From positions 1-36,664 of IMG/VR virus record IMGVR_UViG_3300037882_000572: DNA of 36,664 nt; one strand, 5' to 3'. The position numbers were made by a program, and so were the translations under genes. Position 1 is the first letter of the stretch, and every line of letters begins with the position of its first letter. Shown here one piece after another: positions 2,782 to 18,213 of the stretch. This stretch comes from a virus. Under the pieces are notes generated by a model. The model did not search any database, was not told the DNA's origin, and worked only from the letters and a program-made list of their open reading frames with translations.

Positions 2782-2975
2782 TGACTACTGCACGAGAACT
2801 AGACGACATGTATAAACTTCAACAGGCTCAAGCGGCAAGCGCTGCAAAGAAGGTCTATGAAGACGAACTGAGAGCAAGAGAGCAAAAACGCATCGCCCAC
2901 CTCCTCTCCTTTGAACTAGGTATACCCGAAAAGGAACTGAGTTATTTAATAGAGAGAGTTGAACGTAAACCATAA
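2781..2975 (+). CDS. Small coiled-coil-like hypothetical protein
   Basis: 64 residues from the ATG at 2781, which overlaps the previous TGA. The middle is strongly helical and charged (KLQQAQAASAAKKVYEDELRA), likely a coiled coil. The C-terminus has LGIPEKELSYLIERVER. It is the last gene before the groEL promoter, whose -35/-10 region overlaps this stop codon. Confidence 0.6.
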   Translation: MTTARELDDMYKLQQAQAASAAKKVYEDELRAREQKRIAHLLSFELGIPEKELSYLIERVERKP

Positions 2976-2987
2976 CTGTGATACAAT
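2959..2987 (+). promoter_or_regulatory. groEL promoter
   Basis: TTGAAC (2959-2964), 17-base spacer, extended -10 TGATACAAT (TACAAT 2982-2987). The spacer end ACCATAACTGTGA resembles the early-promoter spacer at 31279, 33500 and 35550. The predicted start near 2994 leaves a short leader with TAGGAG six bases before the GroEL ATG. Confidence 0.75.
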
Positions 2988-3011
2988 ATCAGTAGTAAAC
3001 GTAGGAGTTCT

Positions 3012-4574
3012 ATGGGCAAAAAGATATTTTACAAAGAGGACGCACGCCAGAGACTATTTGGCGGTATAAAGATGCTATACGACGCTGTAGCAGTCACTTA
3101 CGGCCCACAAGGTGGAAATGTCGTTATAATGGATAGGTTCAATATACCGTCTATTACACACGACGGTGTTACCGTTGCTCAGTCAGTGTCAGTAGATGAG
3201 ACGGAAGAAACAGCAGGGTACAATGTTGGTATCGAACTTATTAAGGACGCAGCAAGCAAACTCAACACAGTAGTAGGAGATGGCACTACTACTGTTACAG
3301 TCCTTACTTATCACATCATTGAAGAAGCAAATAAGCTTATTGCAGACGGTGTAAAGCCTCAACAACTTCGTAAGGAACTTGAGAAAGCTTGCATTGAACT
3401 TATAAAAACTCTTGATACACTTGTAGAACCGATTAACGACCAAGATACACGTATTGCAGAAGTTGCTACAGTGAGTGCAGGAGACAGAGAGATCGGTCAA
3501 CTCATAGCCTCAATAGTAAAAGTTATCGGTAAAGACGGAGTAATCACAGTAGAACCTGGACATGGTGTCGGCTTAGAACACGAGATTGTAAAAGGTCACG
3601 CTATTAACGTTGGGTATAAAAGCCCTCTCTTTGTCACTGACCCTACAACTAAAGAAGCAATCATTGACCAGCCGTCTATTATTCTTGCTAAGAAGACCAT
3701 TGCAAGTCCTAATGATATTGTGCCTTTACTCTCAAGACTAACCGAAAAGGGTATAAAAAACATTGTTCTTTTTGCTGAATCAGTCAAGGGTGATGCACTT
3801 AATATCCTACTTGTAAATAAGATTAAAGGTGGACTAAACGTCGTAGTTGTAGAGACTGAAAAAGAAGAGATAGATGATATTGCAGTAACTACTGGTGCTA
3901 TGGTAATCAGTGAAGCAACAGGTATTACCGCAGAAAATGCAAGTCTTGATATACTTGGACACGCAGACAAAGTGATCGTCGGTGAAACAAAGACAACTAT
4001 TATATCAGGTAAAGGTATTAAAGAAGACATTGATACTTACTTAGCAGATATTAAGACTCAATCTGAAAAGCTCACAGGGTACGATAAACAACTACTAGAA
4101 AAGCGCTATGCAGATATCAGTGGTAAAGCAGCAATCATTAAAGTTGGTGGCAACAGTGAAGCAGAGATAGACGAAAAGAAGTATCGTGTTGACGACGCAG
4201 TAGCAGCTACTAAAGCAGCACTAGAGTACGGAATTGTTGCAGGTGGAGGTACAGCCCTAATTCATCTATCAAATAGCTTAGAGAGCCTTACAAACGGTCA
4301 CAAGGTACTTAAACAAGCACTACTTGAACCATTCAAACGTATCACAGACAATGCTCAACTAGACGCAGATGAATTACTAAAGAAGGTACAAAAGGCTAAG
4401 TATGGTTACGGCATAGACGTTTTATCAGACTCTACAGACCTTATTGACCTAAGAGATCACGGTGTTATAGACCCATACCAGGTAACCAAAGAGTCACTGC
4501 TTAGTTCAATCTCCATTGCCTCAACAGTTATTACCATTGGAGCTGTTATAGTGGAAGACCCAGAGAAAGCATAA
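3012..4574 (+). CDS. groEL: Phage-encoded chaperonin GroEL
   Basis: 520 residues, close to full length for the ATP-dependent 60-kDa chaperonin. The nucleotide site is intact: YGPQGGNVV (30-38), GDGTTT (89-94), the catalytic Asp in RVDDA (D395, matching E. coli D398) and VAGGG (409-413). Differences from E. coli lie in the apical domain. YxSPYF becomes YKSPLF (202-207), and the loop before DIA (280-291, VETEKEEIDDIA) is about six residues shorter and lacks PGFGDRRKAM. The C-terminal GGM tail is absent. A GroES-like protein is encoded at 17553, so a matched pair is plausible. It likely folds capsid or other virion proteins. It has its own promoter and AGGAG site and precedes the packaging genes. 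Confidence 0.95.
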   Translation: MGKKIFYKEDARQRLFGGIKMLYDAVAVTYGPQGGNVVIMDRFNIPSITHDGVTVAQSVSVDETEETAGYNVGIELIKDAASKLNTVVGDGTTTVTVLTYHIIEEANKLIADGVKPQQLRKELEKACIELIKTLDTLVEPINDQDTRIAEVATVSAGDREIGQLIASIVKVIGKDGVITVEPGHGVGLEHEIVKGHAINVGYKSPLFVTDPTTKEAIIDQPSIILAKKTIASPNDIVPLLSRLTEKGIKNIVLFAESVKGDALNILLVNKIKGGLNVVVVETEKEEIDDIAVTTGAMVISEATGITAENASLDILGHADKVIVGETKTTIISGKGIKEDIDTYLADIKTQSEKLTGYDKQLLEKRYADISGKAAIIKVGGNSEAEIDEKKYRVDDAVAATKAALEYGIVAGGGTALIHLSNSLESLTNGHKVLKQALLEPFKRITDNAQLDADELLKKVQKAKYGYGIDVLSDSTDLIDLRDHGVIDPYQVTKESLLSSISIASTVITIGAVIVEDPEKA

Positions 4575-4580
4575 AAGGAT

Positions 4581-4591
4581 TGTGATATAAT
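4581..4591 (+). promoter_or_regulatory. Extended -10 promoter of terS, probably leaderless
   Basis: TGTGATATAAT with TATAAT at 4586-4591 and no convincing -35. Only six bases separate the -10 box from the ATG at 4598, so the transcript should start at or beside the start codon. No Shine-Dalgarno is present. Confidence 0.7.
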
Positions 4592-4597
4592 ACCCTT

Positions 4598-4981
4598 ATG
4601 ACACACCCAGGCGGAAGACCTCAAATGTACACACCCGAACAGATACAAGAGATTGTAGATGACTTAACCACTTATATTGAAGAGCGAGAAGACCCTACGA
4701 TCGTTGGCTTTACTTCAAGCTATAGAAAGTATAGTGTGAATAAAGATTACATCTCTGACCACCGTGAGTTTTCCGAACTAAGAAAGCGTGCAATAGAAAA
4801 ACAAGAGGCTTATTTACTCGATGGAGTGACTAAAAATAAGCTAAACGCAACTATGGGCATCTTTAGACTTAAACAGCCACAACATGGCTTTACTGATAAA
4901 CAGCAGCAAGACGTAAGAGTAGAAAATGTAACGCCAATCTTAGGTGGAAATACCAAAGATGATATAAACGACGAAGAATAA
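4598..4981 (+). CDS. terS: Terminase small subunit
   Basis: 127 residues. It begins MTHPGGRPQMYTPEQIQEIV, the GRP...Y lead-in typical of small terminases, with a helical DNA-recognition part. Then come REFSELRKRAIEKQEAYLL and TKNKLNATMGIFRLKQPQHGF, a signature of terminase small subunits of the DNA-packaging family. It would recognise the packaging site and recruit the ATPase encoded just downstream. The acidic tail (DDINDEE) probably contacts the large subunit. It begins right behind a -10 box, so it is probably translated from a leaderless message. A 71-base gap separates it from terL. Confidence 0.85.
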   Translation: MTHPGGRPQMYTPEQIQEIVDDLTTYIEEREDPTIVGFTSSYRKYSVNKDYISDHREFSELRKRAIEKQEAYLLDGVTKNKLNATMGIFRLKQPQHGFTDKQQQDVRVENVTPILGGNTKDDINDEE

Positions 4982-5052
4982 CGTGGTAATAGTGCCAGGA
5001 ATAACGGCTCTATACAAAATAACTATATAAAAGCTTGTCATGGACGATATAA

Positions 5053-6243
5053 ATGTACACACTGACTACATCGACAAAGAAACTTATTAGACTTCGTAAA
5101 CGTATTAGGGCGGTTGCTGGTGGTACTTCTGCTGGTAAAACAATATCAATCCTTCAGCTCCTTATTGACGACGCACAAAGCGACAAGCTACCCACACTCA
5201 CAAGCATAGTAGCTGAATCTTTCCCACACCTACGACGTGGTGCAATGCGTGACTTCCTTAATATTATGAAAGACCACGGCTATTTCAAAGACGCTAGTTG
5301 GAGCAGGTCAGAGTATACATACACGTTCGAGTCAGGTAGTAGGATAGAGTTCTTTAGCGCCGACCAACCATCAAAGGTTCGTGGGCCACGTCGTGACCGT
5401 TTGTTTGTCAACGAGGGGAATAACATCGACAAGGAGTCGTGGGAGCAACTCCTTCTTCGTACCAAGGAGTATGCTTGGATTGACTGGAATCCAGTATCAG
5501 AGTTTTACATGTATGAAGAGTACATAGACAAACGACCAGACGTGGACTTCATCATCCTTACTTACCTAGATAACGAGGGACTAAGCAAAGAGATTGTATC
5601 GGAGATTGAGTCACGCAAGGAGAACAAGAACTGGTGGCGAGTATACGGTATGGGGCTTCTTGGTGAAGTTGAAAGTAGGATATACAAAGATTGGCAGATT
5701 ATTGACGAAGTACCACACACAGCGCGCCTAGAGGTTCGTGGGCTTGACTTTGGATACTCTCAAGACCCAGCGGCTATTGTTGACGTTTACTACCATGACG
5801 GTGGCTATATACTTGACGAACAGTTATACCAGAAGGGCATGACAAATGACGCTATATCAAGGTTTGTTCAGAACCTCAATAACTCAAACACACTAATCAT
5901 AGCTGATAGTGCAGAGCCTAAGAGTATCGACGAAATTAAGATGTACGGTATAAACATACTACCAACGACGAAAGGACCAGGAAGTCTTAACCAAAGAATA
6001 CAATATGTTCAAGGTAAACGTATTAGTATCACTAAAAGGAGTATCAATGGTATTAAAGAGTACAGGTCATACCTATGGAAGACAGACAGAGATGGACGTA
6101 TCCTCCCAATACCAGAGGGAGGCAACGATCACTTCTTGGATGCGGCAGGGTATGCAATATCGTCATTAGATAAGAAGTCAGATGTCCACGCATACAAGCC
6201 ACAAGCCATGGTGCAACGTAAATACAATAGAGCAAAAAATTAA
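5053..6243 (+). CDS. terL: Terminase large subunit (packaging ATPase-nuclease)
   Basis: 396 residues. The N-terminal ATPase has Walker A GGTSAGKT (23-30) and a Walker-B-like RLFVNEGN with Glu at 121. The C-terminal RNase H-type nuclease carries GLDFGYSQDPAAI (D232), IADSAEP (283-289) and NDHFLDAAGYA (358-368, D363), the three acidic positions expected for headful or cos cleavage. It pumps DNA into the procapsid through the portal encoded next. The ATG at 5053 is the first possible start because an in-frame TAA precedes it directly. No good Shine-Dalgarno is seen. Confidence 0.95.
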   Translation: MYTLTTSTKKLIRLRKRIRAVAGGTSAGKTISILQLLIDDAQSDKLPTLTSIVAESFPHLRRGAMRDFLNIMKDHGYFKDASWSRSEYTYTFESGSRIEFFSADQPSKVRGPRRDRLFVNEGNNIDKESWEQLLLRTKEYAWIDWNPVSEFYMYEEYIDKRPDVDFIILTYLDNEGLSKEIVSEIESRKENKNWWRVYGMGLLGEVESRIYKDWQIIDEVPHTARLEVRGLDFGYSQDPAAIVDVYYHDGGYILDEQLYQKGMTNDAISRFVQNLNNSNTLIIADSAEPKSIDEIKMYGINILPTTKGPGSLNQRIQYVQGKRISITKRSINGIKEYRSYLWKTDRDGRILPIPEGGNDHFLDAAGYAISSLDKKSDVHAYKPQAMVQRKYNRAKN

Positions 6244-6244
6244 C

Positions 6245-6287
6245 CTACCATAGTAGTAATACTTATGGTATAATCCAGTCAGGCTGG
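6245..6287 (+). promoter_or_regulatory. Structural promoter and AGGCTGG leader before portal gene
   Basis: CTACCA (6245-6250), 16 bases, then GGTATAAT (TATAAT 6269-6274), followed by AGGCTGG at 6281-6287 in the leader. The same CTACCA-N16-GGTATAAT spacing occurs upstream of 10232. AGGCTG-type leaders recur before 16463, 18886 and 23488. Confidence 0.65.
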
Positions 6288-6301
6288 CGGAAACAATTAC
6301 A

Positions 6302-8080
6302 TTGTCTGCTAAAAAAACTTATACCAACGAAGATAAGACCAAGAAGAAACGATCTAACCCTACACTCGATCTCGTAGTGAAAGACTTTGAAGCTTCTTGG
6401 AAATATACACAAAGCAGTTGGCATGACCGATGGGAACGTAATCACTTCCTCTATAATGGTCAACGAACTAAGCGTTCATATGAGGGTATTACCGACTCAT
6501 TCGTACCTATGACATTCTCAACAGTTGAGACTATGGTTTCAGCTTTATTTGGTGCTAAGCCAAAGTTTAACTATGACGCACCACACAACAAACCTGACCA
6601 GAAGACAGACATTCTTAATGGGCTACTAGATTACTACTGGGATAAAGACCAGTGGAGTCTTAAAGTCATTAACACAGGACGTTCAATGGTTAAGCTTGGT
6701 GTAGGTATCGACTACTTCGCATGGGATAGAGACCACCCTGTAATGATTAGCGTACCACTCAGAGACTTCTTTATTGACCCTACTGCTACAACCCTTGATA
6801 ACGCACGCTACTGTGGACGACGTTACCTCACAACCAAGGAAGAACTCGCAAGCTTTGAGATCGTAGACCTTGATGGTGAACCTGACGCAGATGGTAACTA
6901 CCCACTCAAGAAGAAGTACAAGAATATACCTACCGTACAACCTGGAGGAACAACTGAGAACACAGACCAACAGGAGAAGAACCTATGGTACGGCTCAACT
7001 ATTGAAGAACCTGAGAAAGACCAAGTTGAAGTTATTGAATACTGGACTAAAGACCGTGTTATCTCTGTAGCAAACCGTCGTACAGTCATTGAAGACACTG
7101 AGAACTATTATAAGGCTAAAGCTATTGCAAGTGGTGAAGAGTTTGCAGAGGGCATATTACCTTTTGCAGACGCACGAAACTATGTGGACGAATCACTATT
7201 TTACGCTAAGAGTGACGTTGACTTTATTGCAGATGAGCAAGAGCTACTAAACGACCTTACAAACCAATACGTTGACTCTATCACATTCAACTTGAACCCG
7301 ATGTTTGAGGTTGATCGTACTGACGCAGACAAGATCAATGAAGTAGAAAGCTTACCTGGTGCAGTCTACCCTTATCCAGTTCGTCCTATCATACAGGGTA
7401 ATACTCCGATGGACGCTTTTAACGAACGAATGAACATTAAGAGTGAGATACGCGAAACAACAGCCTCTAACGAAGTCGTGCGTGGTGGTACAAGCGACTC
7501 ATCTGCTACAGCAACAGAGATTAACGCACAGATCGCAGGTGCAGGTCAACGTATTAGCCTAAAGGTTACGCAGATTGAAAACGGTTACTTCTACCGTGTA
7601 GCTAAGATTGTATTTAGAATGGTACAGCTATACGTCACAGAACCTACTATGATTAAGATTGTCGGTAAAGACGGCGCTAAGTGGGAACAGTTCGATCCAT
7701 CTGACTTTGACGGTGAGTACGAACCACGTGTACAACTTGATATTGCACTACAGGCACAGGAGCGTGACAATGCTGCACAAGCTAAAGAGTTATTTGCTGC
7801 ACTTATGGGCGACCCAGACGTTAATCAACGTGAGCTAAAGAAGATGGTACTACACCGAGGCTTTAACCTTGACCCAGATGAAGTAGACCTACTGATGGCT
7901 GAACAACTACCACCTGAAACTGGCGCACTACCTGGCGCTTTGCCTGGAGAAATCCCTCCTGCGCTACCTATAGACCCTATGGCTCAAGTACCTCAAATGC
8001 CTATCGACCCTCTACAGCAACCAGTTACTCCTGAACAACTAGCAGAACTTGAACAATTAGCAGCGGCAGGTATGATCTAA
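6302..8080 (+). CDS. Portal protein
   Basis: 592 residues, the right length and place for a podovirus-type portal. It forms the dodecameric gate for DNA. Markers are an N-terminal helical part (SWHDRWERNHFLYNGQ), FVPMTFSTVETMVSALFGA, VPLRDFFIDPTA, a stem-like helical region NEVVRGGTSDSSATATEIN, and a Pro-rich C-terminus (PGALPGEIPPALPIDPMAQ) then a short helix. No ATG fits, so a TTG at 6302 is chosen. The lysine-rich start (SAKKTYTNEDKTKKK) suits it. The stop overlaps the next ATG by one base. Confidence 0.88.
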   Translation: MSAKKTYTNEDKTKKKRSNPTLDLVVKDFEASWKYTQSSWHDRWERNHFLYNGQRTKRSYEGITDSFVPMTFSTVETMVSALFGAKPKFNYDAPHNKPDQKTDILNGLLDYYWDKDQWSLKVINTGRSMVKLGVGIDYFAWDRDHPVMISVPLRDFFIDPTATTLDNARYCGRRYLTTKEELASFEIVDLDGEPDADGNYPLKKKYKNIPTVQPGGTTENTDQQEKNLWYGSTIEEPEKDQVEVIEYWTKDRVISVANRRTVIEDTENYYKAKAIASGEEFAEGILPFADARNYVDESLFYAKSDVDFIADEQELLNDLTNQYVDSITFNLNPMFEVDRTDADKINEVESLPGAVYPYPVRPIIQGNTPMDAFNERMNIKSEIRETTASNEVVRGGTSDSSATATEINAQIAGAGQRISLKVTQIENGYFYRVAKIVFRMVQLYVTEPTMIKIVGKDGAKWEQFDPSDFDGEYEPRVQLDIALQAQERDNAAQAKELFAALMGDPDVNQRELKKMVLHRGFNLDPDEVDLLMAEQLPPETGALPGALPGEIPPALPIDPMAQVPQMPIDPLQQPVTPEQLAELEQLAAAGMI

Positions 8081-8310
8081 TGAACCCAGAGCTAAGAAAA
8101 CAATTTGCAGACTTTATTGCAAGCCCAGCAGGTGAGGCACATGTTAAGAAGCTACAACTACTTATCAGTCTTAACCATGAAAGTGCCGAGAATAATCCTG
8201 AACTATCCCGAGACTATGTACAGCGCGCTAAGGGTATCCGAGAAGCTTTAGATGAACTTATTGCGTCTGGTGTTGAAATTAAACTGAAGGGGGTGAAGAA
8301 AAGGAAGTAG
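8080..8310 (+). CDS. Small helical protein after portal
   Basis: 76 residues, translationally coupled to the portal (TAATG). It is almost entirely helical and charged: LRKQFADFIASPAGEAHVKKL, SRDYVQRAKGIREALDELI, with a basic tail KLKGVKKRK. Small proteins between portal and scaffold are common in this type of phage, but I do not recognise a function. It may be a head-assembly accessory factor. Confidence 0.65.
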   Translation: MNPELRKQFADFIASPAGEAHVKKLQLLISLNHESAENNPELSRDYVQRAKGIREALDELIASGVEIKLKGVKKRK

Positions 8311-8324
8311 TCGCACATCTAAAA

Positions 8325-8395
8325 GAGTGAGTGATAGTACAAAATACTAACTTTTTCCAGCCTACGTTAAAAGAAAAAATACCTATCATTCACTC
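8325..8395 (+). promoter_or_regulatory. Long-range inverted repeat in portal-scaffold gap
   Basis: GAGTGAGTGATAG (8325-8337) pairs with CTATCATTCACTC (8383-8395): 13 pairs with one G-T wobble, enclosing 45 AT-rich bases. A second small stem TTGGG/CCCAA (8398-8414) follows. The strong AGAGGAGACAG ribosome site of the scaffold gene comes next. This could be an mRNA processing or stability element rather than a terminator, because no T-tract follows. Confidence 0.6.
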
Positions 8396-8431
8396 CTTTG
8401 GGCATGTGACCCAATAATAAGAGGAGACAGT

Positions 8432-9166
8432 ATGGAAGAAACCACAACTGAAGTAATCTCGCAAGACACTGGCGCTGAAACAGCACAACCAGTAGTAGCA
8501 GATACCACGACAGCGGTTACAACAACCGACGAATCAGAGCAACAAACTAATACAGAGCAGACAGAGCAAGTACAGACTCAGACAGCTACACAAGCCGACG
8601 ACGATGCACTTACTAAGTTCGCACAAGCTAAAGGTTTGGAACTCGACAGTGACAGTACACGCAAAGCCGTGAAAATGGCAATGGACGCAGAGAAGCGTAT
8701 GCATCAAGCGACTGGACGTGCTAGTGAGGTTGAGAAAACATTATCAACAATGTCAGATCAATCAGCAGTAGCAGAAGCTCAGGCAACAGGGCAAGATCCT
8801 GAATTGCTAAAAGCAGTCAGACAATTACAGGTTAATAATTCAATCCGTGATTTCTTTGACGCAAACCCTGACGCAAGAGAATACGAAGCAGAAATGTCAA
8901 AGATTGCAACCGAGTCTGGACTATATGGTACAGCGGATTCAATTCTAAAAGCATCATATGCTATCGCGCTATCTAACGATCCTAGCAAACTGGCATCTGT
9001 AAAGTCACAGGTTAAGCAGGAAACCTTGCAAAACCTAGCCCACAAGCAACAAGCCGCAGTGCCTACAGGAAATGCAACTACCCAAACAGGTGGTTCACAA
9101 GAAAAACCATTCGCAGAGTTATCAATTTCAGAGATGGAAAAGAAACTAGGGTTTGGAGTTCGATAA
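8432..9166 (+). CDS. Putative scaffolding protein
   Basis: 244 residues. The first 60 are Thr/Gln/Glu-rich and low complexity. A helical part follows (DALTKFAQAKGLELDS, AVKMAMDAEKRMHQATGRA, predicted coiled coil), then a Gln/Gly-rich linker and a short terminal helix ISEMEKKLGFGVR. This acidic-disordered plus helical plan, directly before the capsid gene, is the classic layout of a scaffolding protein. It has a strong AGGAG site seven bases from the ATG. No protease motif is seen. Confidence 0.75.
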   Translation: MEETTTEVISQDTGAETAQPVVADTTTAVTTTDESEQQTNTEQTEQVQTQTATQADDDALTKFAQAKGLELDSDSTRKAVKMAMDAEKRMHQATGRASEVEKTLSTMSDQSAVAEAQATGQDPELLKAVRQLQVNNSIRDFFDANPDAREYEAEMSKIATESGLYGTADSILKASYAIALSNDPSKLASVKSQVKQETLQNLAHKQQAAVPTGNATTQTGGSQEKPFAELSISEMEKKLGFGVR

Positions 9167-9202
9167 GTAGCGCTCGGTTATTAAATCTATAAGGATAATA
9201 AA

Positions 9203-10141
9203 ATGACCGCACAAACTACAACTGGCCTTTCACAAGAGATGTCAACATACTACGAAAAGGTATTCTTGGCTCGCGCTGAATACGAATACATCTTTTCACA
9301 AGGCGCTCAAATGCGCACACAACCTGCTAACGAAGGTAAGACTGTTGTCTTCACACGACACACCCCTCTTGCTACAGCTACAACTGCACTTACAGAGGGT
9401 ACTAACCCTGCTGAAGTGAACCTTACAGCTTCTAACGTATCTGCAACACTTGCTGAATACGGTAACACTGTTAAGATTAGCCGATTCCTAGACCTCACAT
9501 CTATTGACCGTAACAACAAAGAGAAAATTGAAGTTGTTGGTCAGAACATGGGTGAGACACTTGACGAACTAACTCGTAATGAGCTATTCACAGGTGCTAC
9601 GGCTCAGTTAGCAGGTGCTAAATCAGCTTTGACTGACGTTGCTATCACTGACGTGTTAAGCGTTACAGAGCTTCGTAAAGCTGTTCGTACACTAAAACTA
9701 GCTAAAGCTCGACGCTACCAGGATCGTATTGCTCCTTGGTTAGGTAAAGTTGGGCCAAACACTAGCTACGACCTTACAACAGACTCAACATTCCTATCTG
9801 CTGACATCTACGATAACGGAGCTGAAAAGCTTTACAACGGAGAACTCGGTAAGATCCTTGGTGTTCGTCTAATTGAAAGCCCTAACCAATACGAAGCTGT
9901 AAATGCTGGTGCATCAAGCGCTGACATCTTCAGTAACTTCATTCACGGTTCAGACGCTTTCGGTTGTATCGACCTAGTTGGTGACAAACCACAACTGTAT
10001 ATCATCCCTCACACTAAGATCGACAGCGGCAACCCTGCTGGACGATTCAGTACTGTTGCATGGGCTGCTTCATACGTCACTAAGACTTTGAACGCTTCAT
10101 GGTTGATTGATATCAAAACTGGTGCAACGGGACAGGCATAG
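9203..10141 (+). CDS. Major capsid protein, N4-gp56 family
   Basis: 312 residues. It begins MTAQTTTGLSQEMSTYYEKV, and has the family-typical stretches FLARAEYEYIFSQGAQMRT, GKTVVFTRHTPLATATTALTEG, ATLAEYGNTVKISRFLDLTSID, and a C-terminal FGCIDLVGDKPQLYII then WAASYVTKTLNASWL. These match the N4_gp56 group of HK97-fold capsid proteins. It follows the scaffold gene, with AAGGAT seven bases before the ATG. It would be the most abundant virion protein and the likeliest client of the encoded GroEL/GroES. A GC-rich hairpin follows. Confidence 0.92.
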   Translation: MTAQTTTGLSQEMSTYYEKVFLARAEYEYIFSQGAQMRTQPANEGKTVVFTRHTPLATATTALTEGTNPAEVNLTASNVSATLAEYGNTVKISRFLDLTSIDRNNKEKIEVVGQNMGETLDELTRNELFTGATAQLAGAKSALTDVAITDVLSVTELRKAVRTLKLAKARRYQDRIAPWLGKVGPNTSYDLTTDSTFLSADIYDNGAEKLYNGELGKILGVRLIESPNQYEAVNAGASSADIFSNFIHGSDAFGCIDLVGDKPQLYIIPHTKIDSGNPAGRFSTVAWAASYVTKTLNASWLIDIKTGATGQA

Positions 10142-10155
10142 TCTGATTCGCTGTT

Positions 10156-10189
10156 GGGGGGGGTGGGCAACTGCCCCCTACCACGTTTT
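10156..10189 (+). terminator. Possible terminator after capsid gene
   Basis: A run of eight G, then TGGGCAACTGCCCCCTACC, can fold (GGGC/GCCC, or GGGGG/CCCCC), followed by ACGTTTTA. The T-tract is short, so termination may be partial. The promoter for the next gene begins inside this region. Confidence 0.5.
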
Positions 10190-10225
10190 AAGCAGTAGTG
10201 GTATAATTTCATTAAAGAAAGGCTA
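10178..10225 (+). promoter_or_regulatory. Structural promoter after capsid gene
   Basis: CTACCA (10178-10183), 16 bases, GGTATAAT (TATAAT 10202-10207), then AGGCTA at 10220-10225, 12 bases before the ATG at 10232. It has the same spacing as the portal promoter, with a slightly altered AGGCTGG leader. Confidence 0.65.
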
Positions 10226-10231
10226 CACACT

Positions 10232-10465
10232 ATGGACACAACAATACAAGATAAGATCATCTCACACTACCAAAAAGGTCAAGGCTCAATACAGGATATT
10301 GCACGAGTATACAACGTATCAGTTGCCGAGGTGCTACGAGTTACAGGACAGGGCCACCTCGCAAGCGTACAGACTCAAGGTGACATGATTAGCGAAGCAG
10401 ATGCAGGCCCAGGCGCTCAAATGAACTACGGCAAAGAGTTCGTTGTCCCATTCAGTACGGACTAA
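10232..10465 (+). CDS. Small helix-turn-helix protein
   Basis: 77 residues. Residues about 6-35 (KIISHYQKGQGSIQDIARVY then NVSVAEVLRVTG) form a probable helix-turn-helix of the resolvase or sigma-region-4 type. The C-terminal part is Gly/Gln-rich and ends MNYGKEFVVPFSTD. It has its own promoter directly after the capsid gene. It could be a regulator or a minor head protein. Confidence 0.6.
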   Translation: MDTTIQDKIISHYQKGQGSIQDIARVYNVSVAEVLRVTGQGHLASVQTQGDMISEADAGPGAQMNYGKEFVVPFSTD

Positions 10466-10469
10466 TGCT

Positions 10470-10718
10470 ATGTACGGACGCGCAGGAGAGCTTGTAAGGC
10501 TTAATAAAGACAGAAACGACTATACACTCAGCAAGATTGTCAGACAGCGTGCAAACGAAGCCTACGTGAAGATCAGCCACCAACTTAAAGACAAAAAGCT
10601 TATGTCTTTACGGCTACGACTTATACGAGCTACAAAAGCGCGAGACATGACAGCAGCTGAACGTATACAACTGCAAATGCGTGACTACCTAAAGCAAGAT
10701 ATGGAAACAGGACAATGA
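10470..10718 (+). CDS. Small basic helical protein
   Basis: 82 residues from the ATG at 10470, four bases after the previous stop. A TTG at 10443 would add nine residues but lies inside the upstream gene. Arg/Lys-rich helices dominate (LVRLNKDRNDYTLSKIVRQR, LMSLRLRLIRATKARDMTAA). The stop overlaps the next ATG (ATGA). It is possibly a head or DNA-associated protein; no family recognised. Confidence 0.6.
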   Translation: MYGRAGELVRLNKDRNDYTLSKIVRQRANEAYVKISHQLKDKKLMSLRLRLIRATKARDMTAAERIQLQMRDYLKQDMETGQ

Positions 10719-11407
10719 CAGACTACATAGATATCCTAAAGGAAAAGAAAACCATAGCTCTCGAAAGGGAACAACTAAAGAGTAGTCTTCTAGTGTTGGC
10801 AAATATTCTAACAGAGGCTAATACTAAAGCGCCTCGTGACTTATCAGATACAGTCAAGCAATTAAATTCAACAATCGTGAGTGCGGTGAAAGACCTCCGT
10901 AACGATACGACAATCCCAGATAAGATAGCTAACGATTACAAACGTGTTGCAGACTACGTACTAACGGCAATTAGTGAACAGTCCAATGACCTGAAAGATA
11001 TTGCTAAAGATATCGTAAAGGCGGTAGAGGGTATAAAACTACCAGAAATGCCTACTATACCAAAGATGCCAGAGGTAAAAATACCAGCGTTTCCAAAGAT
11101 TGACATACCCGCTCCAATAGTAAACATACCTGAAAATGACTTTAGCCCAATTGCGCGCGCTATCGAGGGCTTGAAAACAGAACAGGGTATTGATCTGAGC
11201 GTATTCAGGCCACACGACATAGACGATGTTGACGATATGCAATACATCGGCTTCGTTGCCCCATCAGGGCAGTGGTATATCATCGAAAATCAAGTCAAAG
11301 AGAATAGTCTACGTTACACTTTTGGTAAAGATGATTACACTGCGGCTTTTAAAAAGGCTGGTACGTTTAAGTACAGACTACTAAGTGAGGCAATCCATGC
11401 GTTATAG
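10715..11407 (+). CDS. Coiled-coil / Pro-rich structural protein
   Basis: 230 residues. A helical N-terminal half (EKKTIALEREQLKSSLLVLA, DTVKQLNSTIVSAVKDL) leads to a Pro-rich segment at about 110-140 with repeating xIPxxP units (PEMPTIPKMPEVKIPAFPK). A compact C-terminal domain follows (YIGFVAPSGQWYIIENQV). A long helix plus an extended Pro segment suits a fibre, spike or connector part. It overlaps the next gene by 11 bases. Function inferred from location only. Confidence 0.6.
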   Translation: MTDYIDILKEKKTIALEREQLKSSLLVLANILTEANTKAPRDLSDTVKQLNSTIVSAVKDLRNDTTIPDKIANDYKRVADYVLTAISEQSNDLKDIAKDIVKAVEGIKLPEMPTIPKMPEVKIPAFPKIDIPAPIVNIPENDFSPIARAIEGLKTEQGIDLSVFRPHDIDDVDDMQYIGFVAPSGQWYIIENQVKENSLRYTFGKDDYTAAFKKAGTFKYRLLSEAIHAL

Positions 11408-11834
11408 GTTAGACCCTTTGTCGCAAACAGGGCTGTCTGTTGTTGAGCCAAAACCACTTAAAAACGCTAGTGGTGCATTCGTCAGTAGCGGCGTAGATAG
11501 CATATCAAAAGCAGGGTCGGCACAACTAAAACGTAACGTAACACTATCTGCTGGTTCAAACATTACCCTGACTCAAACTGGTCAAAATATTCAGATATCG
11601 TCAACAGGTGGATCTGGTGGCGTAACTTGGATATATCTTGCTACATCGTGGGACTCTGCCCCTACAGTTAATAAGGTAATTACAGGTGGGACAGTATTTA
11701 ACTATATCCTCAGCGCCGTAACTAAATACAGGTTTGTGCCTGACCCTTATGTATCTTCAAGTGATGCGTTTTATGAAGATTTCGACAATATAAACGACAT
11801 CTTAACCAACCTAGTTATAACGAGGGCAACATAG
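11397..11834 (+). CDS. Tail/structural protein with beta-rich repeat
   Basis: 145 residues from the ATG at 11397. It contains VTLSAGSNITLTQTGQNIQISSTGGSGG, the short beta-sheet motif common in phage tail fibre and spike proteins just before a Gly linker. The C-terminus (TKYRFVPDPYVSSSDAFYED) looks like a small globular cap. It lies between two virion-type genes, so it is probably part of the tail or a fibre adaptor. Confidence 0.6.
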   Translation: MRYRLDPLSQTGLSVVEPKPLKNASGAFVSSGVDSISKAGSAQLKRNVTLSAGSNITLTQTGQNIQISSTGGSGGVTWIYLATSWDSAPTVNKVITGGTVFNYILSAVTKYRFVPDPYVSSSDAFYEDFDNINDILTNLVITRAT

Positions 11835-11835
11835 C

Positions 11836-14397
11836 ATGGCAACATTTACAATCACGACTGCACAAAATATTGACGCACTAAGTGTTAAGGCAGGTGGCGA
11901 CCTCTATAACGTAAACGGTGGTACTCTTACTATTGACCAAGATTCACGAGTTGGTACAAACCAAACCACATCAACTACACTTGGTACGATTACTTTATCA
12001 GCATCTTTGGGTGGTACTGTAAACATAGATGGTAGTGCCATCTGGATGATTCCATATACAGGCGGTTCGGGCAACGTACCTGCATGGAATACGACTATTA
12101 CTAACGGTTCTGGTACAGGCAAACTTATTGGTGTGCATTCTGCTCTTACCGCTGCTTCTACCGCTACAGGCGCGGCAATGCCTGCGACTGGATTTATCCG
12201 AGTAAAACAGAAGTCAGGCGCATACACAGCAGGTGCGTTGACAGGTATCACTGCTACAGCGTCAGACGCAGGGCGTGTCGGTTGGATTGAAATAGTTGGT
12301 GACGAAGCGTCAACAATTAACGCTAACCGCTTAGGCACGTTCAACATCACTGGCGCATGGTATGAAGTGGGCACAACGTCAGGCGTGTCTAACCAAACAA
12401 TGCAAATACCTAACAATGGGCTTCTTAGGTATGCGGCAGGAGTCTTTATTGAAACTTCGGTAGGCTCAGGCGCATACGAGTTCTATCCAAACGCAGGAAC
12501 AACGACGACGACAGGTACAGAAGCCTCAAGAGGCAAGGTTGTTTGGATAGATAACGCTGGACTTGTACGAATAGGTAACTCAGGCGCAGCAACTAATGGC
12601 TATACTCCTGTATCGGGCTTAAAAGTAGTCATTGGTAATATCTTCTTTGAAAACGCTACCACCGCAGCCCGAACAGCAAACGTGATTCCAAACGCTACTA
12701 TTGCTACTCGTTACGACTTCACTACTACTGGTGGTGGTGTACTTGAAATAGACAAATGTAACATGGCGTGGTACTTGTCAGTCTCACAAGCATACTCATG
12801 CAACGTGTCAAACTCAGGTTTTGTAGACGCTATATCCCTATCTGAGGTTGCAGCACCGATGACCTTTACTAAGGTGGGTGTTGGGAACAAACCAACGACT
12901 GCACTCTTAGTTTCACCTCTTACAATGACCTATTGTTATGCAGGTGGTACATTTACTGACTGTGTATGGGCAAGGGTTTCACAGGCGGCTTCTGGCGCAC
13001 ATACTAACGTGCTAACAGACATAGACGGTTTCACGTTCACTAGGAACACAGTACGAGCTAACACTATCAGGGGTAACTCTACTACTTACGGCGTAATAGC
13101 TACTCGTGCCAAAAATATCACTTATGATACACCAACAATTATCCAAAGTGGGTTTGCCCTTGTAACCTGTGACAACTTTAATACCAACGATGTTAAGTTC
13201 GTGTCAGCCGTCTCAGGTACTACCGTCACAACGTATACAGATTATGTATGGAACGTATCATCAAACACGATTAACTGTAACTTTAGCGGACTTACGCTCC
13301 CTGTAACAAGTAACGCACCATATACCGCACTTCTTATTGGGGCTACTGGTTGTGCAAACATCAAACTGAGGAATATAGGGACATACGCCTCGCCACTCAA
13401 CCTAGACGCTGGCGCAAACGACACAGGACTTATTTATACGCTTGCTACGAACTGCCAAGATTTCTACTTCCAACGTATCTATGTATCAAACACTCGTACT
13501 AATACAATGACAGCCGACAACTCTTGTAAGAACATTATCGAGAAGAACGTCTTTGGTAAATACGCAGACGCACCACTTGCAGCTGTACTTAACCTCACTC
13601 GTTTAGGTGGTGGCTCTACCAACGCACTTACCGCTCAAACATCTGTGTACGGTACACACTGGATGGATTACTTCACCTCTACTACAGCAGGACGTTTAGC
13701 AATTGTAATGAACGAGCCAACTGCTGATACGACTGCACAAGTTACGCTTTCTAACGGAGCAGCCTTTACTTCAGCAGGTGGACTATACATGCCAGTCATT
13801 GGACATCAGGCTATCTTTGAAACACCTGAGTATATTATCGGGCATACGGCTTTTCAGAACTCTGCACTCATCATGGCTGGTGGTACTGCAACAAACTACA
13901 CCTACGATTATTCGATAGATAAAAACGATGGTGCAGGTTGGTCAACTATGACCACAAGCAACTACTCACCAACTACGCTAGCAACAGCCCTTAACGGACT
14001 ATCTGGTATAAGCGCAGTCAATGGGTTTAAACTGAGACTAGAAATAACGACTGGCACAACCAACGCCACTGCTATTACATCTGTCTATCTCCTTACAAGC
14101 TCAACAACGACTACACAGGCTTACCAGTATCCACTAGATACTATTACGCTGACTATGACTGGCCTACAAACAGGGTCAGATATAGTAGTGCTAGAGGCTG
14201 GCACAGAGACAGAACTTGTAAACGTAGACGCTAACGCTGGTACGACTTACGAGTTTATATACGAAACCCCACAAGACATAGATATTGGGGTATTTAAGAT
14301 TGGGTACGTTCCGTTTTATATACGAAGTTACGCACTAGGCTCTACCGATAGTAGTGTTCCTGTGGCACAAGTAGCAGATAGGAATTACCTACCATGA
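11836..14397 (+). CDS. Large beta-rich tail/surface protein
   Basis: 853 residues, the largest product here. Ser/Thr/Gly/Asn-rich throughout, with recurring short strands (TLGTITLSASLGGTVNIDG; ILNKFR-type patterns are absent). The middle, about 270-560, alternates short strands and turns as in right-handed beta-helix spikes. The C-terminal 200 residues read as Ig-like beta-sandwiches (YTYDYSIDKNDGAGWSTMTT, TITLTMTGLQTGSDIVVLEA). No catalytic residues were identified. It is a likely receptor-binding, spike or surface protein. It directly follows the previous gene with one intervening base. Confidence 0.7.
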   Translation: MATFTITTAQNIDALSVKAGGDLYNVNGGTLTIDQDSRVGTNQTTSTTLGTITLSASLGGTVNIDGSAIWMIPYTGGSGNVPAWNTTITNGSGTGKLIGVHSALTAASTATGAAMPATGFIRVKQKSGAYTAGALTGITATASDAGRVGWIEIVGDEASTINANRLGTFNITGAWYEVGTTSGVSNQTMQIPNNGLLRYAAGVFIETSVGSGAYEFYPNAGTTTTTGTEASRGKVVWIDNAGLVRIGNSGAATNGYTPVSGLKVVIGNIFFENATTAARTANVIPNATIATRYDFTTTGGGVLEIDKCNMAWYLSVSQAYSCNVSNSGFVDAISLSEVAAPMTFTKVGVGNKPTTALLVSPLTMTYCYAGGTFTDCVWARVSQAASGAHTNVLTDIDGFTFTRNTVRANTIRGNSTTYGVIATRAKNITYDTPTIIQSGFALVTCDNFNTNDVKFVSAVSGTTVTTYTDYVWNVSSNTINCNFSGLTLPVTSNAPYTALLIGATGCANIKLRNIGTYASPLNLDAGANDTGLIYTLATNCQDFYFQRIYVSNTRTNTMTADNSCKNIIEKNVFGKYADAPLAAVLNLTRLGGGSTNALTAQTSVYGTHWMDYFTSTTAGRLAIVMNEPTADTTAQVTLSNGAAFTSAGGLYMPVIGHQAIFETPEYIIGHTAFQNSALIMAGGTATNYTYDYSIDKNDGAGWSTMTTSNYSPTTLATALNGLSGISAVNGFKLRLEITTGTTNATAITSVYLLTSSTTTTQAYQYPLDTITLTMTGLQTGSDIVVLEAGTETELVNVDANAGTTYEFIYETPQDIDIGVFKIGYVPFYIRSYALGSTDSSVPVAQVADRNYLP

Positions 14398-14422
14398 TAA
14401 ATAAAATAAGAGGAGATAAATA

Positions 14423-15961
14423 ATGGCAAAGATAACAGATCCTGATGACCTAGTCGTATCCTCAAGTTCAGGTAACTTGGGTGTAGACGGAAACATTTGG
14501 CTAGACACAGCAGCGAGTACATTCACACTGGCGGTATATGGTTCATTAACATCAGCAAAAGAGGGTGTCACAATTCAGGCACTCTACTCTAAGTTTGTAG
14601 ACCTTTGGACTACCTCAGCTTACAATAAGTTTGAGTTTCCAATGTACACAATTGACGCAACCAGTGGTCAGTATCAATTTGGTACAGACGGTGCAACGTT
14701 TAGTGGTTGGGTTGCTTCAAACGACGCTACAAGGCAAATGCTTCGTGATGGTGGTTGGGCTGAATACCTAGCAAACGGTACACTAGACCGCAAGTACGTC
14801 GGTATTGTATCACTGGGTGATGTAAATACAGGCGCACAACTGTACTACCAGAAAACAGACGGTGGTACTGCAGCAGACTTTACCTTTGACGACGAAGTAA
14901 ACGAAGGTATCCTGATTTACGAAGATGGTGGTATTGACAACCAAACCTACTTTAAAGGCTATGTTCGTGAGTACGCTAAGAAGTATGACGACTCAGTTCT
15001 GTCTGACACAGGTCTTACTGCTACAGGCGCACTAAAGGTAAACTTACTACTCGCTAACGAAGATGATCTAAAGATTCAAGATACAGATGTAAACGTAGCC
15101 GCTAACGCACCGTATACTGGGATTACTGCAACGTGGATAACAGGAAACAACTTTGACACAACAAATACCTCACCTTACGCACTTGACGACGTGGTAAAAG
15201 ACGGCGCAGGTCGCTGGTACATCTGTACTACGGCAGGTACAGCAGACGCAACTGACTATTCAGACCTCTCTACAATGGGCGGTGCAGGCACAGCAGTATT
15301 CGCAAGCTACACTGGTGAGCGCCTAATCGGTACAACTTACTACGCTTTTAATATCATCATAGACGGTAACGCAGCGGTCGCAGAAGATGTCTACACTAAG
15401 GTTCAGTACCTACTACGACAAGCTGGTGATATAGACTCTGGTGCAGGTACACACAACGGTACAATCACACAGTCTCTTATGGGCTTTGTTGGTGATACTT
15501 TAATCACTACAACTGGTGTATATATTGACGACTTTGACTCTGATGACGTCAACCGCCTTACGTTTACAGACACTAGCGGAACAGCTCGTACGTTCCCTTA
15601 CACTGCTACTGGTACGTTAAGCTTCAACTCTGTACTTACATCAGGTGGTACTGGTTATTACCGTATGTACTTTACAGACTTAGCAGGTTCTAACGACTAC
15701 GGTCTAACAGGAGCAATAACAGTAGACGACGCTAGCGGTACAGACATTGCTGGTACAATATCAGGAGCATCTATTGCATTTACATTCGACTACGACGGCA
15801 ACGTTCAAGGAAGTAGAACTGCAGGAACAGACGCAGCAGTCACAGTAGTAGCTGGTAATGCAGGAAGCGCTAAACCAGTAGTGACAACGTACACAATAAC
15901 AAGAGCAACAGGACAGGGTATAACACTGACTGCTGAAACAGATAGAGCATACGTAGCCTAA
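14423..15961 (+). CDS. Virion-associated beta-rich protein
   Basis: 512 residues with a strong AGAGGAGATAAATA ribosome site. The opening MAKITDPDDLVVSSSSGNLG and IWLDTAASTFTLAVYG, then LYSKFVDLWTTSAYNKFEFP, matches proteins I recall next to structural genes of N4-gp56-type phages. YSKFVDLW...SAYNKF also echoes the LWSRWVDWWLTSDNSKY motif of the next protein, so the two may share a domain. The C-terminal half is Thr/Gly-rich beta. Probably a tail-tip or fibre component. Confidence 0.7.
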   Translation: MAKITDPDDLVVSSSSGNLGVDGNIWLDTAASTFTLAVYGSLTSAKEGVTIQALYSKFVDLWTTSAYNKFEFPMYTIDATSGQYQFGTDGATFSGWVASNDATRQMLRDGGWAEYLANGTLDRKYVGIVSLGDVNTGAQLYYQKTDGGTAADFTFDDEVNEGILIYEDGGIDNQTYFKGYVREYAKKYDDSVLSDTGLTATGALKVNLLLANEDDLKIQDTDVNVAANAPYTGITATWITGNNFDTTNTSPYALDDVVKDGAGRWYICTTAGTADATDYSDLSTMGGAGTAVFASYTGERLIGTTYYAFNIIIDGNAAVAEDVYTKVQYLLRQAGDIDSGAGTHNGTITQSLMGFVGDTLITTTGVYIDDFDSDDVNRLTFTDTSGTARTFPYTATGTLSFNSVLTSGGTGYYRMYFTDLAGSNDYGLTGAITVDDASGTDIAGTISGASIAFTFDYDGNVQGSRTAGTDAAVTVVAGNAGSAKPVVTTYTITRATGQGITLTAETDRAYVA

Positions 15962-15971
15962 AGGAGAAATC

Positions 15972-16430
15972 ATGGCACTATCATTTGACGGTACAACCAA
16001 GGTAGTCACAATCACCACCGATACTACACTTGACGTGCGTGATTTATGGTCACGCTGGGTTGACTGGTGGTTGACCTCTGACAATTCAAAGTACGGTATT
16101 GCTATGGTACAAGTGGGCGGTGACGACATTGACGTTGTAGCAGGGACTAAAATCCCTGTCTACATCTATTTGCAAGACGGCTGGAAAGTAAAGCCAAAGG
16201 AAGCATCACACACACTTGCCGTCACTAACGGTATTCTACTAACAGATGACAGCTCAGACCCATTCACAGATACGACTGGTTCGTATATTGTGCGAGTCAA
16301 CTACCAACAACCTGTGCAAGCTATTTCATTCTCTACGGGTGGCACGGTCACAGAGGCAGCACTTACAGTAATTAACGAAGGTGTCAAGCTGGCAAGTATA
16401 CTTGTACCCCACACAACTGACTTACCGTGA
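15972..16430 (+). CDS. Conserved tail-region protein
   Basis: 152 residues. It begins MALSFDGTTKVVTITTDTTL, then LWSRWVDWWLTSDNSKYGIA, IPVYIYLQDGWKVKPKEASH and a C-terminal beta part. This pattern recurs in a conserved phage virion family from varied hosts, as far as I recall, of unknown exact role. AAGGAG precedes the ATG by six bases. The stop is immediately followed by the next -10 box. Confidence 0.72.
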   Translation: MALSFDGTTKVVTITTDTTLDVRDLWSRWVDWWLTSDNSKYGIAMVQVGGDDIDVVAGTKIPVYIYLQDGWKVKPKEASHTLAVTNGILLTDDSSDPFTDTTGSYIVRVNYQQPVQAISFSTGGTVTEAALTVINEGVKLASILVPHTTDLP

Positions 16431-16458
16431 TATAATAAGATTAAACTAATGAGGCTGG
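16431..16458 (+). promoter_or_regulatory. Promoter and AGGCTGG leader of the glycosyltransferase-GroES cassette
   Basis: TGATATAAT with TATAAT at 16431-16436, next to the previous stop, then GAGGCTGG (AGGCTGG 16452-16458) five bases before the ATG at 16463. No clear -35. It should drive the four-gene cassette ending at 18832. Confidence 0.65.
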
Positions 16459-16462
16459 CATT

Positions 16463-17581
16463 ATGAAAATACTCGCAATTCACTCAATTTTTGGAGAAAA
16501 CGACAAAACTAAGTCGGCAGTTGATACGTGGCGTATCTGGCGACCACTAAGAGAACTAAAAAAACACGTTGATTGGCAAATAGATGAGCAACCTAGCCTT
16601 ATTAAAGGCATCGAGAAGTACGCAAGCGCAAAAGAGTTTACAGAAGAAGAAATGCGTAAAGCGTACATTCACCTTAGTAAGTACGATATTGTGTTTAGTT
16701 CGTACCATGCAGACCCTACAGGCTACTCTATGCTTAAAGTATTAGAAGAAAAATACGGAGTACAGTTTGTTATGGACATTGACGACGACATGTTCTCAGT
16801 CAATCCAGATAATCCGTTTTGGGTAAAGATAGACGATGAGAAGTGTTACTGGATGCAGTGTATGATTAGAGACAATACGTGGATATCTACGACTACACCA
16901 GAACTAGCAAAGGTATTCAGAGATAGGCGTGATCGACCAGAGGATAGTGTATTTATCAATCCTAACTTTATTACTGACGACTATAAACAAAACCCTTTTA
17001 ATAATGGTGACAAGATCGTTATTGGTTACTTTGGAGGGTCTTCTCACTATTCAGATATTCACGATACAGGCGTGATGGAAGCAGTACAGAAGATCATGCA
17101 TGAGCGCAAAGATGTATACTTCAAGGCTGTTGGCATGCCTGTTGATACTTACTTACCACGTAAACGCTATACTTTCGTTGATGGTAAACGATTCAATGGC
17201 TGGATGAATGAGATATACCCGAACCTTGCAATGGATATTGCACTTGCACCTTTGAAGCATGATATTTTCAATAAAGGCAAGTCAAACATTAAGTGGCAAG
17301 AGTCAACACGTGCAGGTGCTTTGTTTGTAGGCTCAAACTACGGCCCATACAGCGATTTAGACGGCAAAGCCATACTAGTAGACGAAAACACACAAGACGC
17401 ATGGTACAGCGCCTTAAAACAAGCCATAGACGATGTAGAGTTGCGCAAGGGTATGATAAAGACAGCGCAAGAAGACCTGAAAGCTAACTGGCGACTAGAA
17501 GATAACTGGAAACGGTACAAGACAATGTTTGAAACAGTATATAGGAGTAAACATGAAAACAATCCAACCATCACCAAATAA
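16463..17581 (+). CDS. Glycosyltransferase, GT-B (family 4-like)
   Basis: 372 residues. It begins MKILAIHSIFGENDKTKSAV. Landmarks are KYDIVFSSYHADP, FVMDIDDDMFSV, a second-domain start KIVIGYFGGSSHYSD, LAMDIALAPLKHD and the donor-site motif KSNIKWQESTRAGALFV, with the E-x(3)-RAGA pattern of GT-B enzymes. It would transfer a nucleotide-activated sugar to an acceptor not shown by the sequence. It sits among tail genes, so a virion protein or host surface polymer is a reasonable target. Its last 29 bases overlap the GroES gene in another frame. Confidence 0.82.
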   Translation: MKILAIHSIFGENDKTKSAVDTWRIWRPLRELKKHVDWQIDEQPSLIKGIEKYASAKEFTEEEMRKAYIHLSKYDIVFSSYHADPTGYSMLKVLEEKYGVQFVMDIDDDMFSVNPDNPFWVKIDDEKCYWMQCMIRDNTWISTTTPELAKVFRDRRDRPEDSVFINPNFITDDYKQNPFNNGDKIVIGYFGGSSHYSDIHDTGVMEAVQKIMHERKDVYFKAVGMPVDTYLPRKRYTFVDGKRFNGWMNEIYPNLAMDIALAPLKHDIFNKGKSNIKWQESTRAGALFVGSNYGPYSDLDGKAILVDENTQDAWYSALKQAIDDVELRKGMIKTAQEDLKANWRLEDNWKRYKTMFETVYRSKHENNPTITK

Positions 17582-17816
17582 CGTATTCTGTGAGCGTCAG
17601 AGACCACAAGAGTCAACACAGTCGGGTATTATTATCCCACCGTCTGCGCAAGATGAAACGCAGTTTGCCACCGTCATTGCTAGCGGTTCAGATATATACC
17701 AAAGTGGTGATGTGATCGTATACAAGGAATATACAACTACTGATATTATTCTCGACGAAAAGCCTTATTTTCTTATAGATACAGTTGACATACTAGGAAA
17801 GCTAGTTAATGATTAA
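17553..17816 (+). CDS. groES: GroES-like co-chaperonin
   Basis: 87 residues from the ATG at 17553, after TAGGAG five bases upstream; an upstream frame extension is not needed. The layout follows GroES: N-terminal IQPSPNNVFCERQRPQE, a mobile-loop region STQSGIIIPPSAQDE with the hydrophobic III at 26-28 (E. coli IVL), FATVIASG, GDVIVYKEY and C-terminal IDTVDILGKLV. It caps a GroEL ring and controls the folding cycle. Its partner is probably the GroEL at 3012, some 14.5 kb away and under another promoter. It overlaps the glycosyltransferase by 29 bases and the next gene by eight. Confidence 0.85.
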   Translation: MKTIQPSPNNVFCERQRPQESTQSGIIIPPSAQDETQFATVIASGSDIYQSGDVIVYKEYTTTDIILDEKPYFLIDTVDILGKLVND

Positions 17817-18213
17817 AGTCCTCACTATCGGTACGTTCGACACGCCACATATCGGGCATATGGTACTTTTCAAAAGATGCGAAGAACTCGGAGAGCTGAC
17901 TATAGGTGTCAATAGCGATGAGTTTGTAGAAAAGTACAAAGGTGTAAAACCATTATACTCATTTGAAGAGAGATGTAGTCTACTATCGCAGTTGGGGTAT
18001 AACATTGTACGAAACAATAGCAACGGTAGAGACCTTATACATGAAGAACAGCCTGACATATTAGTAATCGGGTCAGATTGGGCAAAAAAGGACTACTTAA
18101 AACAGATCGGCGTAACACAAGAGTACCTTGATAACTACAATATCTCTTTGATGTATGTCCCTTATACAGTCGGTATTAGTTCAACAGATATTAAGAGGCG
18201 ACTCAGTGAGTAA
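17809..18213 (+). CDS. Cytidylyltransferase-like nucleotidyltransferase (TagD-like)
   Basis: 134 residues. The HxGH motif (TPHIGH, 12-17) binds the nucleotide phosphate, and ISSTDIKRR (123-131) is the C-terminal signature of the glycerol-3-phosphate cytidylyltransferase family. Length suits TagD. It would make a CDP-activated compound such as CDP-glycerol or a related alditol, which the adjacent transferases might use. Other members of this fold use ATP, so the nucleotide is not certain. It starts eight bases before the GroES stop. Confidence 0.82.
   Translation: MIKVLTIGTFDTPHIGHMVLFKRCEELGELTIGVNSDEFVEKYKGVKPLYSFEERCSLLSQLGYNIVRNNSNGRDLIHEEQPDILVIGSDWAKKDYLKQIGVTQEYLDNYNISLMYVPYTVGISSTDIKRRLSE

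Follow-up and report, generated by a model that had tools for sequence, protein, structure and literature searches.

A likely hybrid-origin group I chaperonin in a small phage: phage-lineage GroES and Saccharibacteria-type GroEL

We analyzed the virus record IMGVR_UViG_3300037882_000572 from IMG/VR, a linear sequence of 36,664 bp (the whole of this stretch is called the window below), which encodes the two halves, GroEL and GroES, of a group I chaperonin. The groEL gene is located before the terminase genes, and groES lies in a cassette of sugar genes, between a glycosyltransferase (GT1) and a cytidylyltransferase-like gene (Table 1). It overlaps both neighbors, the cytidylyltransferase start codon falling within the final codons of groES. 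The presence of both genes, their separation by some 14 kb (14.5 kb from start to start) and the position of groES inside the sugar cassette had been read from the sequence in an earlier note, and all three stand. The same note regarded the two as a matched pair, which does not agree with our trees: the body of GroES groups with a phage family, and GroEL groups with Saccharimonadia. Nor is the note's "36.6-kb genome" proven to be complete, as the linear contig opens inside an open reading frame (ORF).

The identities of both proteins are backed by NCBIfam, PHROGs and PDB sequence matches in addition to Pfam profiles. GroEL matches Cpn60_TCP1 (PF00118) over residues 22-516 (1.1e-55; 189.7 bits against a cut-off of 34.3) and the NCBIfam GroEL models with a best value of 1.8e-133; it passes NF000592 (445.8 bits; cut-off, 397) and falls below the stricter TIGR02348 equivalog cut-off (439.5 versus 582). 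Against solved bacterial GroELs its identity is about 36-38%. Its full-length AlphaFold2 model has a predicted local distance difference test score (pLDDT) of 87.7, and the top template modeling (TM) score among the listed matches is 0.93, to the human Hsp60 single-ring ADP form. The ATP site is complete, as previously noted (GDGTTT, VAGGG and Asp395, which corresponds to Escherichia coli D398), and T30, P33, D52, D87, S151, G415 and D495 are also kept. The hydrophobic apical groove that binds both clients and GroES retains Y199, F204, V234, L237, L259, L263 and V264, with a Leu in place of Y203. Of the charges between the rings, K105, K452 and D461 are kept and E434 is missing; the R197-E386 pair is lost, as is also reported for the OBP chaperonin (PMC9598537).

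Three further traits of GroEL had been pointed out in the earlier note. The motif YKSPLF, which contains the Leu at the Y203 position, is present, but we rejected it as a mark of phage adaptation, since it mostly reflects the host lineage, Leu at 203 being found in several Saccharimonadia (ASALF). The loss of about six residues before DIA, between residues 282 and 283, is real and absent from the hosts. It is nevertheless not a GroES-specific adaptation, because shortenings at the same place recur independently in other phage GroELs. The proposed coevolution of the apical change and the GroES mobile loop has some support, though of another sort: the mobile loop alone of GroES is host-like. Finally, the GGM tail is indeed lacking (the C terminus reads ...VEDPEKA); it is absent from most small-phage GroELs too, and we took it as frequent in the GroEL family but not as essential to it.

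GroES matches Cpn10 (PF00166) with 50.9 bits (cut-off, 21.1; 1.7e-13), and the NCBIfam equivalog cut-offs for GroES are not reached. Its AlphaFold2 model (pLDDT, 83.4) finds only Cpn10 chains among the best Foldseek matches, with a TM score of up to 0.79 (GroES in 1aon), which speaks for the GroES fold in the structural check suggested for this product. The mobile loop carries the expected hydrophobic tripeptide (SGIIIP). The roof hairpin is missing, as in the Saccharimonadia hosts and T4 gp31. All Saccharimonadia GroES proteins examined (L003-L006 and L144-L181) lack this hairpin, as do those of a few other Patescibacteria (L182-L184); an open-topped lid across a bacterial class may be undescribed.

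Table 1. Features of the chaperonin genes and their surroundings in the window
Feature	Position	Strand	Basis
groEL, host-type (Saccharimonadia) group I chaperonin, 520 amino acids (aa)	3012..4574	+	profiles, trees, structure model
Ribosome-binding site GTAGGAG, serving the groEL start	3001..3007	+	direct reading
Sigma-70-like promoter TTGAAC-17-TACAAT with extended -10 TG, upstream of groEL	2959..2987	+	9/12 matches
Saccharimonadia-type insertion in GroEL, about residues 66-70, ETAGY	3207..3221	+	in window and 28/28 Saccharimonadia, 0/6 cassette GroELs
Site of six-residue apical deletion in GroEL, between residues 282 and 283	3857..3858	+	hosts KAPSFGDRRK, window VET-EKEE
groES, phage-lineage co-chaperonin, 87 aa, without roof hairpin	17553..17816	+	profile, tree, model
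GroES mobile loop, residues 16-35, QRPQESTQSGIIIPPSAQDE, host-like	17598..17657	+	BLOSUM comparison, permutation
Putative small terminase subunit, directly 3' of groEL	4598..4981	+	position; homologue before large terminase gene in L034/L035, G011
Large terminase subunit	5053..6243	+	family searches
Portal protein, SU10/P22 type	6302..8080	+	family searches
Major capsid protein, plausible chaperonin client	9203..10141	+	family searches
Glycosyltransferase GT1, directly 5' of groES in cassette	16463..17581	+	phrog_7162
Cytidylyltransferase-like gene; in relatives stands after cassette groEL	17809..18213	+	Pfam, gene order
Family 2 glycosyltransferase, just under Pfam cut-off	18203..18832	+	Pfam

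To place the two genes in context, we gathered relatives by capsid, terminase, GroES and GT1 searches; when GroES was run against viral_contigs, an alignment query gave matches and a single-sequence query gave none. The relatives are linear contigs, in which a missing gene can reflect a gap. GT1, GroES and GroEL occur together in L299, L300, L305, L312, L316, L321 and G012, with the cytidylyltransferase next in several. The order GT1-GroES-GroEL-cytidylyltransferase is seen in the first six of these, and variants are seen in G012 and in L298, where GroES precedes GT1 and GroEL stands slightly further along. In L305 the four genes overlap, and the window has the same order minus GroEL. Because the cytidylyltransferase follows groEL in the relatives and groES in the window, the GroEL slot of the window cassette, now GT1-GroES-cytidylyltransferase, is empty. 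Every unbroken cassette record has a single GroEL; in L312 (L312:803-2539) the cassette GroEL is in two frames beside an intact GroES, reflecting either decay or a sequencing error. An alternative in which GroEL joined a pre-existing GroES on two occasions was discarded, as many relatives have the GT1-GroES-GroEL cassette.

The two closest relatives by capsid, G002 (92%) and G007 (91%), both have GroES after GT1. No GroEL was found in G002, G007 or L296/G559, although GroES is present, and in G002 the contig covers the region before the terminase without a GroEL there. A gene product of that region (L118:7697-9938) contains a protein kinase domain (Pfam, 1.9e-23), and a TPR-repeat protein comes next. 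Neither GroES nor GroEL was seen in G009, G010, G011 and G015.

The window GroEL looks as if it was captured from a Saccharibacterial host. Its nearest relatives are GroELs of Candidatus Saccharibacteria (50% identity among genome contigs and up to 55% among 295 genomes of the class), whereas identity to deposited phages is at most 39% and to the cassette GroELs 35-41%. A tree of 58 rows nests it in Saccharimonadia (support, 96/99). In a 42-row tree that leaves out the most divergent phages, it groups with 19 Saccharimonadia (clade support, 100/100), and a 98/99 branch sets the six cassette GroELs apart as a separate clade. The approximately unbiased (AU) test rejected a grouping of the window GroEL with the cassette GroELs (P = 0.018) and with G012 alone (P = 0.047). 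A mark independent of the tree is an insertion after E. coli residue ∼65. The stretch there measures 21-24 residues in the Saccharimonadia (28/28), and the window has 21; it is 16-17 residues long in the cassette GroELs (6/6) and 17 in nearly all other Patescibacteria (13/14). Judging from genes and not from observed infection, the host of the phage family is probably Saccharibacteria, because of this GroEL affinity and because a capsid relative occurs on contigs of 2 of the 393 Saccharimonadia genomes (42% and 26% identity).

GroES, on the other hand, looks like an old gene of the phage lineage in which the mobile loop alone is host-like. The GroES tree assigns the window to a phage clade of 11 rows (100/97), which persists when the mobile-loop columns are removed (98/93); without these columns, placement with the host-core GroES was rejected (AU test, P = 0.024). 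By BLOSUM score, loop residues 16-35 are nearer to the hosts (37.6) than to phage relatives (13.1), and the remainder of the protein is nearer to phage relatives (130.8) than to the hosts (88.5). A permutation over random columns showed the host-likeness of the loop to be in excess (P = 0.0003), and residue 15 is the start of the 20-residue stretch that most resembles the hosts. In G007, which carries GroES without GroEL, the same peak is present with a weaker shift (P = 0.018). None of the examined phages with a cassette GroEL shows such a host-like shift. As the GroES tree makes the window, G007 and G002 sisters, the G007 peak is suggestive and not an independent replication.

On balance, we favor a functional, hybrid chaperonin of group I, arising through loss of the ancestral phage GroEL, capture of one from a host and readaptation of the lid's loop. 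The phage lineage would long have carried the late-operon cassette GT1-GroES-GroEL-cytidylyltransferase. The window lineage would then have lost the cassette GroEL and taken another from its Saccharibacterial host, which now stands before the terminase genes behind a possible promoter of its own. The old phage GroES would have been kept in place, its mobile loop turning host-like and thereby fitting the new partner. A natural exchange of partners in exactly these terms, with only the mobile loop remodeled (or recombined) to the host type and so isolated as the part that sets partner choice, is a possibility that we favor only tentatively, a little short of an even call.

Several observations weigh against this history. 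With all columns included, a host-core origin of GroES was not rejected (AU test, P = 0.35), and without the loop columns, its placement with all Saccharimonadia was borderline (P = 0.06). The loop pattern comes from a few phages that are sisters, and the shift is not significant in G002 (P = 0.18). Both window proteins have long branches (1.2-1.6). In the groEL region, promoter-like sites are not more numerous than in shuffled sequence. The equivalents of E. coli R197 and R284/R285 are lost from the window GroEL, and because of this, its allostery may differ from that of E. coli. More generally, the proteins evolve fast, the contigs are linear, the AU tests are moderate (P = 0.02 to 0.05) and all data are sequences and models. 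The protein families, the ATP site, the order of genes, their origins (with moderate statistical backing) and the loop shift can be read from sequence; assembly, the pairing of GroEL with GroES, the clients and the order of events are what we infer from these data.

An unlikely alternative, and one that shares ground with the hybrid reading, is that the two proteins are not partners: the captured GroEL would act alone, as EL, OBP and AR9 do, and the phage GroES would cap the host GroEL, as T4 gp31 does. Lid-independent phage chaperonins exist (PMC7185714, PMC9598537), GroES occurs without GroEL in G002, G007 and L296, the window genes are 14 kb apart, and the window GroEL lacks both E434 and the R197-E386 pair. 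The window GroEL is, however, near bacterial GroEL, unlike EL, which is only 22% identical to GroEL (PMC7185714), and it keeps the groove hydrophobics V234, L237, L259, L263 and V264. A host-like loop would suit the host GroEL and the host-type window GroEL alike, and the two readings overlap here.

It is quite unlikely that the cassette GroEL simply moved to its place before the terminase and then diverged, which would give the pair a single origin. Cassette and window GroELs are both in or near Saccharimonadia, and long branches make their placement uncertain, with only moderate AU values (0.047 and 0.018). Such a move is nonetheless difficult to reconcile with an insertion that none of the six cassette GroELs shares, with the higher identity to the hosts (53-55%, against 35-41% to the cassette GroELs) and with the 100/100 clade that the window GroEL forms with them. 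Very improbable is the matched pair, in which one host supplied both GroES and GroEL in a single capture and the new GroES overwrote the cassette copy. The host-like loop and the unrejected host-core placement when loop columns are included would fit it, but the GroES body is of the phage lineage, groES stands at the cassette position after GT1 and the genes are 14 kb apart. That GroEL is a decaying or nonchaperone passenger, as its long branch, apical deletion and missing GGM tail and the split cassette GroEL of L312 might suggest, is likewise very improbable given the complete frame of 520 aa, in which no catalytic residue is lost, the confident full-length model and the good ribosome-binding site.

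The phage chaperonin is real and probably working, and it would fold late phage proteins, perhaps the capsid protein. By homology, GroEL rings would hold unfolded phage proteins on the hydrophobic apical groove; upon ATP binding, a GroES heptamer would dock via the III loop and close the cage, and hydrolysis would reset it. The lid is roofless, as in T4 gp31. The best guess for clients is the capsid protein or other late virion proteins, because most relatives showing both genes have groES downstream of the one for the capsid, directly so in L326 and L327. In distant relatives (L326:6803-7366, L327:6803-7366 and L329:6011-6637), GroES-like domains are found in ORFs of ∼190-210 aa immediately 3' of the major capsid gene.

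Some phages are known to carry both GroEL and GroES (PMC7185714), and many of the viral contigs that carry GroEL have sizes of about 35-45 kb, which tempers the earlier note's view that a pair in a small phage is unusual. Flavobacterium phage immuto (160 kb) also encodes both halves, but its genes are adjacent and its genome is about four times larger; the window genes are 14 kb apart, differ in origin and tree position and do not form an adjacent groES-groEL operon of one origin. T4 gp31 and RB49 CocO are phage GroES homologues that likewise lack the roof hairpin, and the roofless gp31 serves the T4 capsid protein (PMC6318259); the gp31 loop reads SGLIIG where the window has SGIIIP, and T4 uses the host GroEL, whereas the window phage also encodes a GroEL. 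The GroEL homologues of EL, OBP and AR9 are reported to be independent of a co-chaperonin (PMC7185714, PMC9598537), whereas the window encodes GroES; the 22% identity of EL to GroEL compares, for the window GroEL, with about 36-38% to the solved bacterial GroELs and 53-55% to Saccharibacterial GroEL. Saccharimonadia themselves offer the nearest GroEL relatives, with the same insertion and the same short roofless GroES, but their genes are adjacent in most genomes seen, and both the KAPxFGDRR loop and the GGM tail are present in their GroEL.

Manatee Spring phage MW202497 (42.9 kb) is also small and encodes a GroEL without a GGM tail, near Saccharimonadia and flanked by glycosyltransferases; no GroES was found in it, and its GroEL is 35% identical to that of the window. 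In this phage (L106:3472-7791), GroEL stands between two glycosyltransferase genes, sugar and chaperonin genes again occurring together. Very divergent GroELs, sharing ∼27-28% identity with that of the window, occupy the position directly before the terminase at L034:697-2196, L035:7830-9329, L036:2465-3955 and L039:261-1781, in phages whose terminase is related to that of the window, and some have an altered GDGTTT motif (GDNTTM or GDATST). Kinship with these was considered and rejected: the slot is shared with the window GroEL, but the clade is distant. At the opening of the record, positions 1-573 of the window encode a partial pentapeptide-repeat protein with a DUF5758 domain.

Phage GroEL/GroES pairs are already known, YKSPLF is mainly of host nature and the hosts share a short GroES. 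What is new is the likely hybrid origin or exchange of partners, the loop-limited signal that fits it and the probable Saccharibacteria host. In the papers searched on Patescibacteria phages (PMC12911398, PMC13059738, PMC10746230), chaperonins were not found to be mentioned. Evidence from host genes for infection of Saccharibacteria is valuable, as these hosts are ultrasmall and hard to culture. Related phages are found in every state, namely, GroES with a cassette GroEL, GroES alone, neither gene, and GroES with a captured host GroEL. Because phages this closely related show all of these states, the set makes it testable which residues decide the fit between GroES and GroEL, as well as why small phages carry chaperonins.

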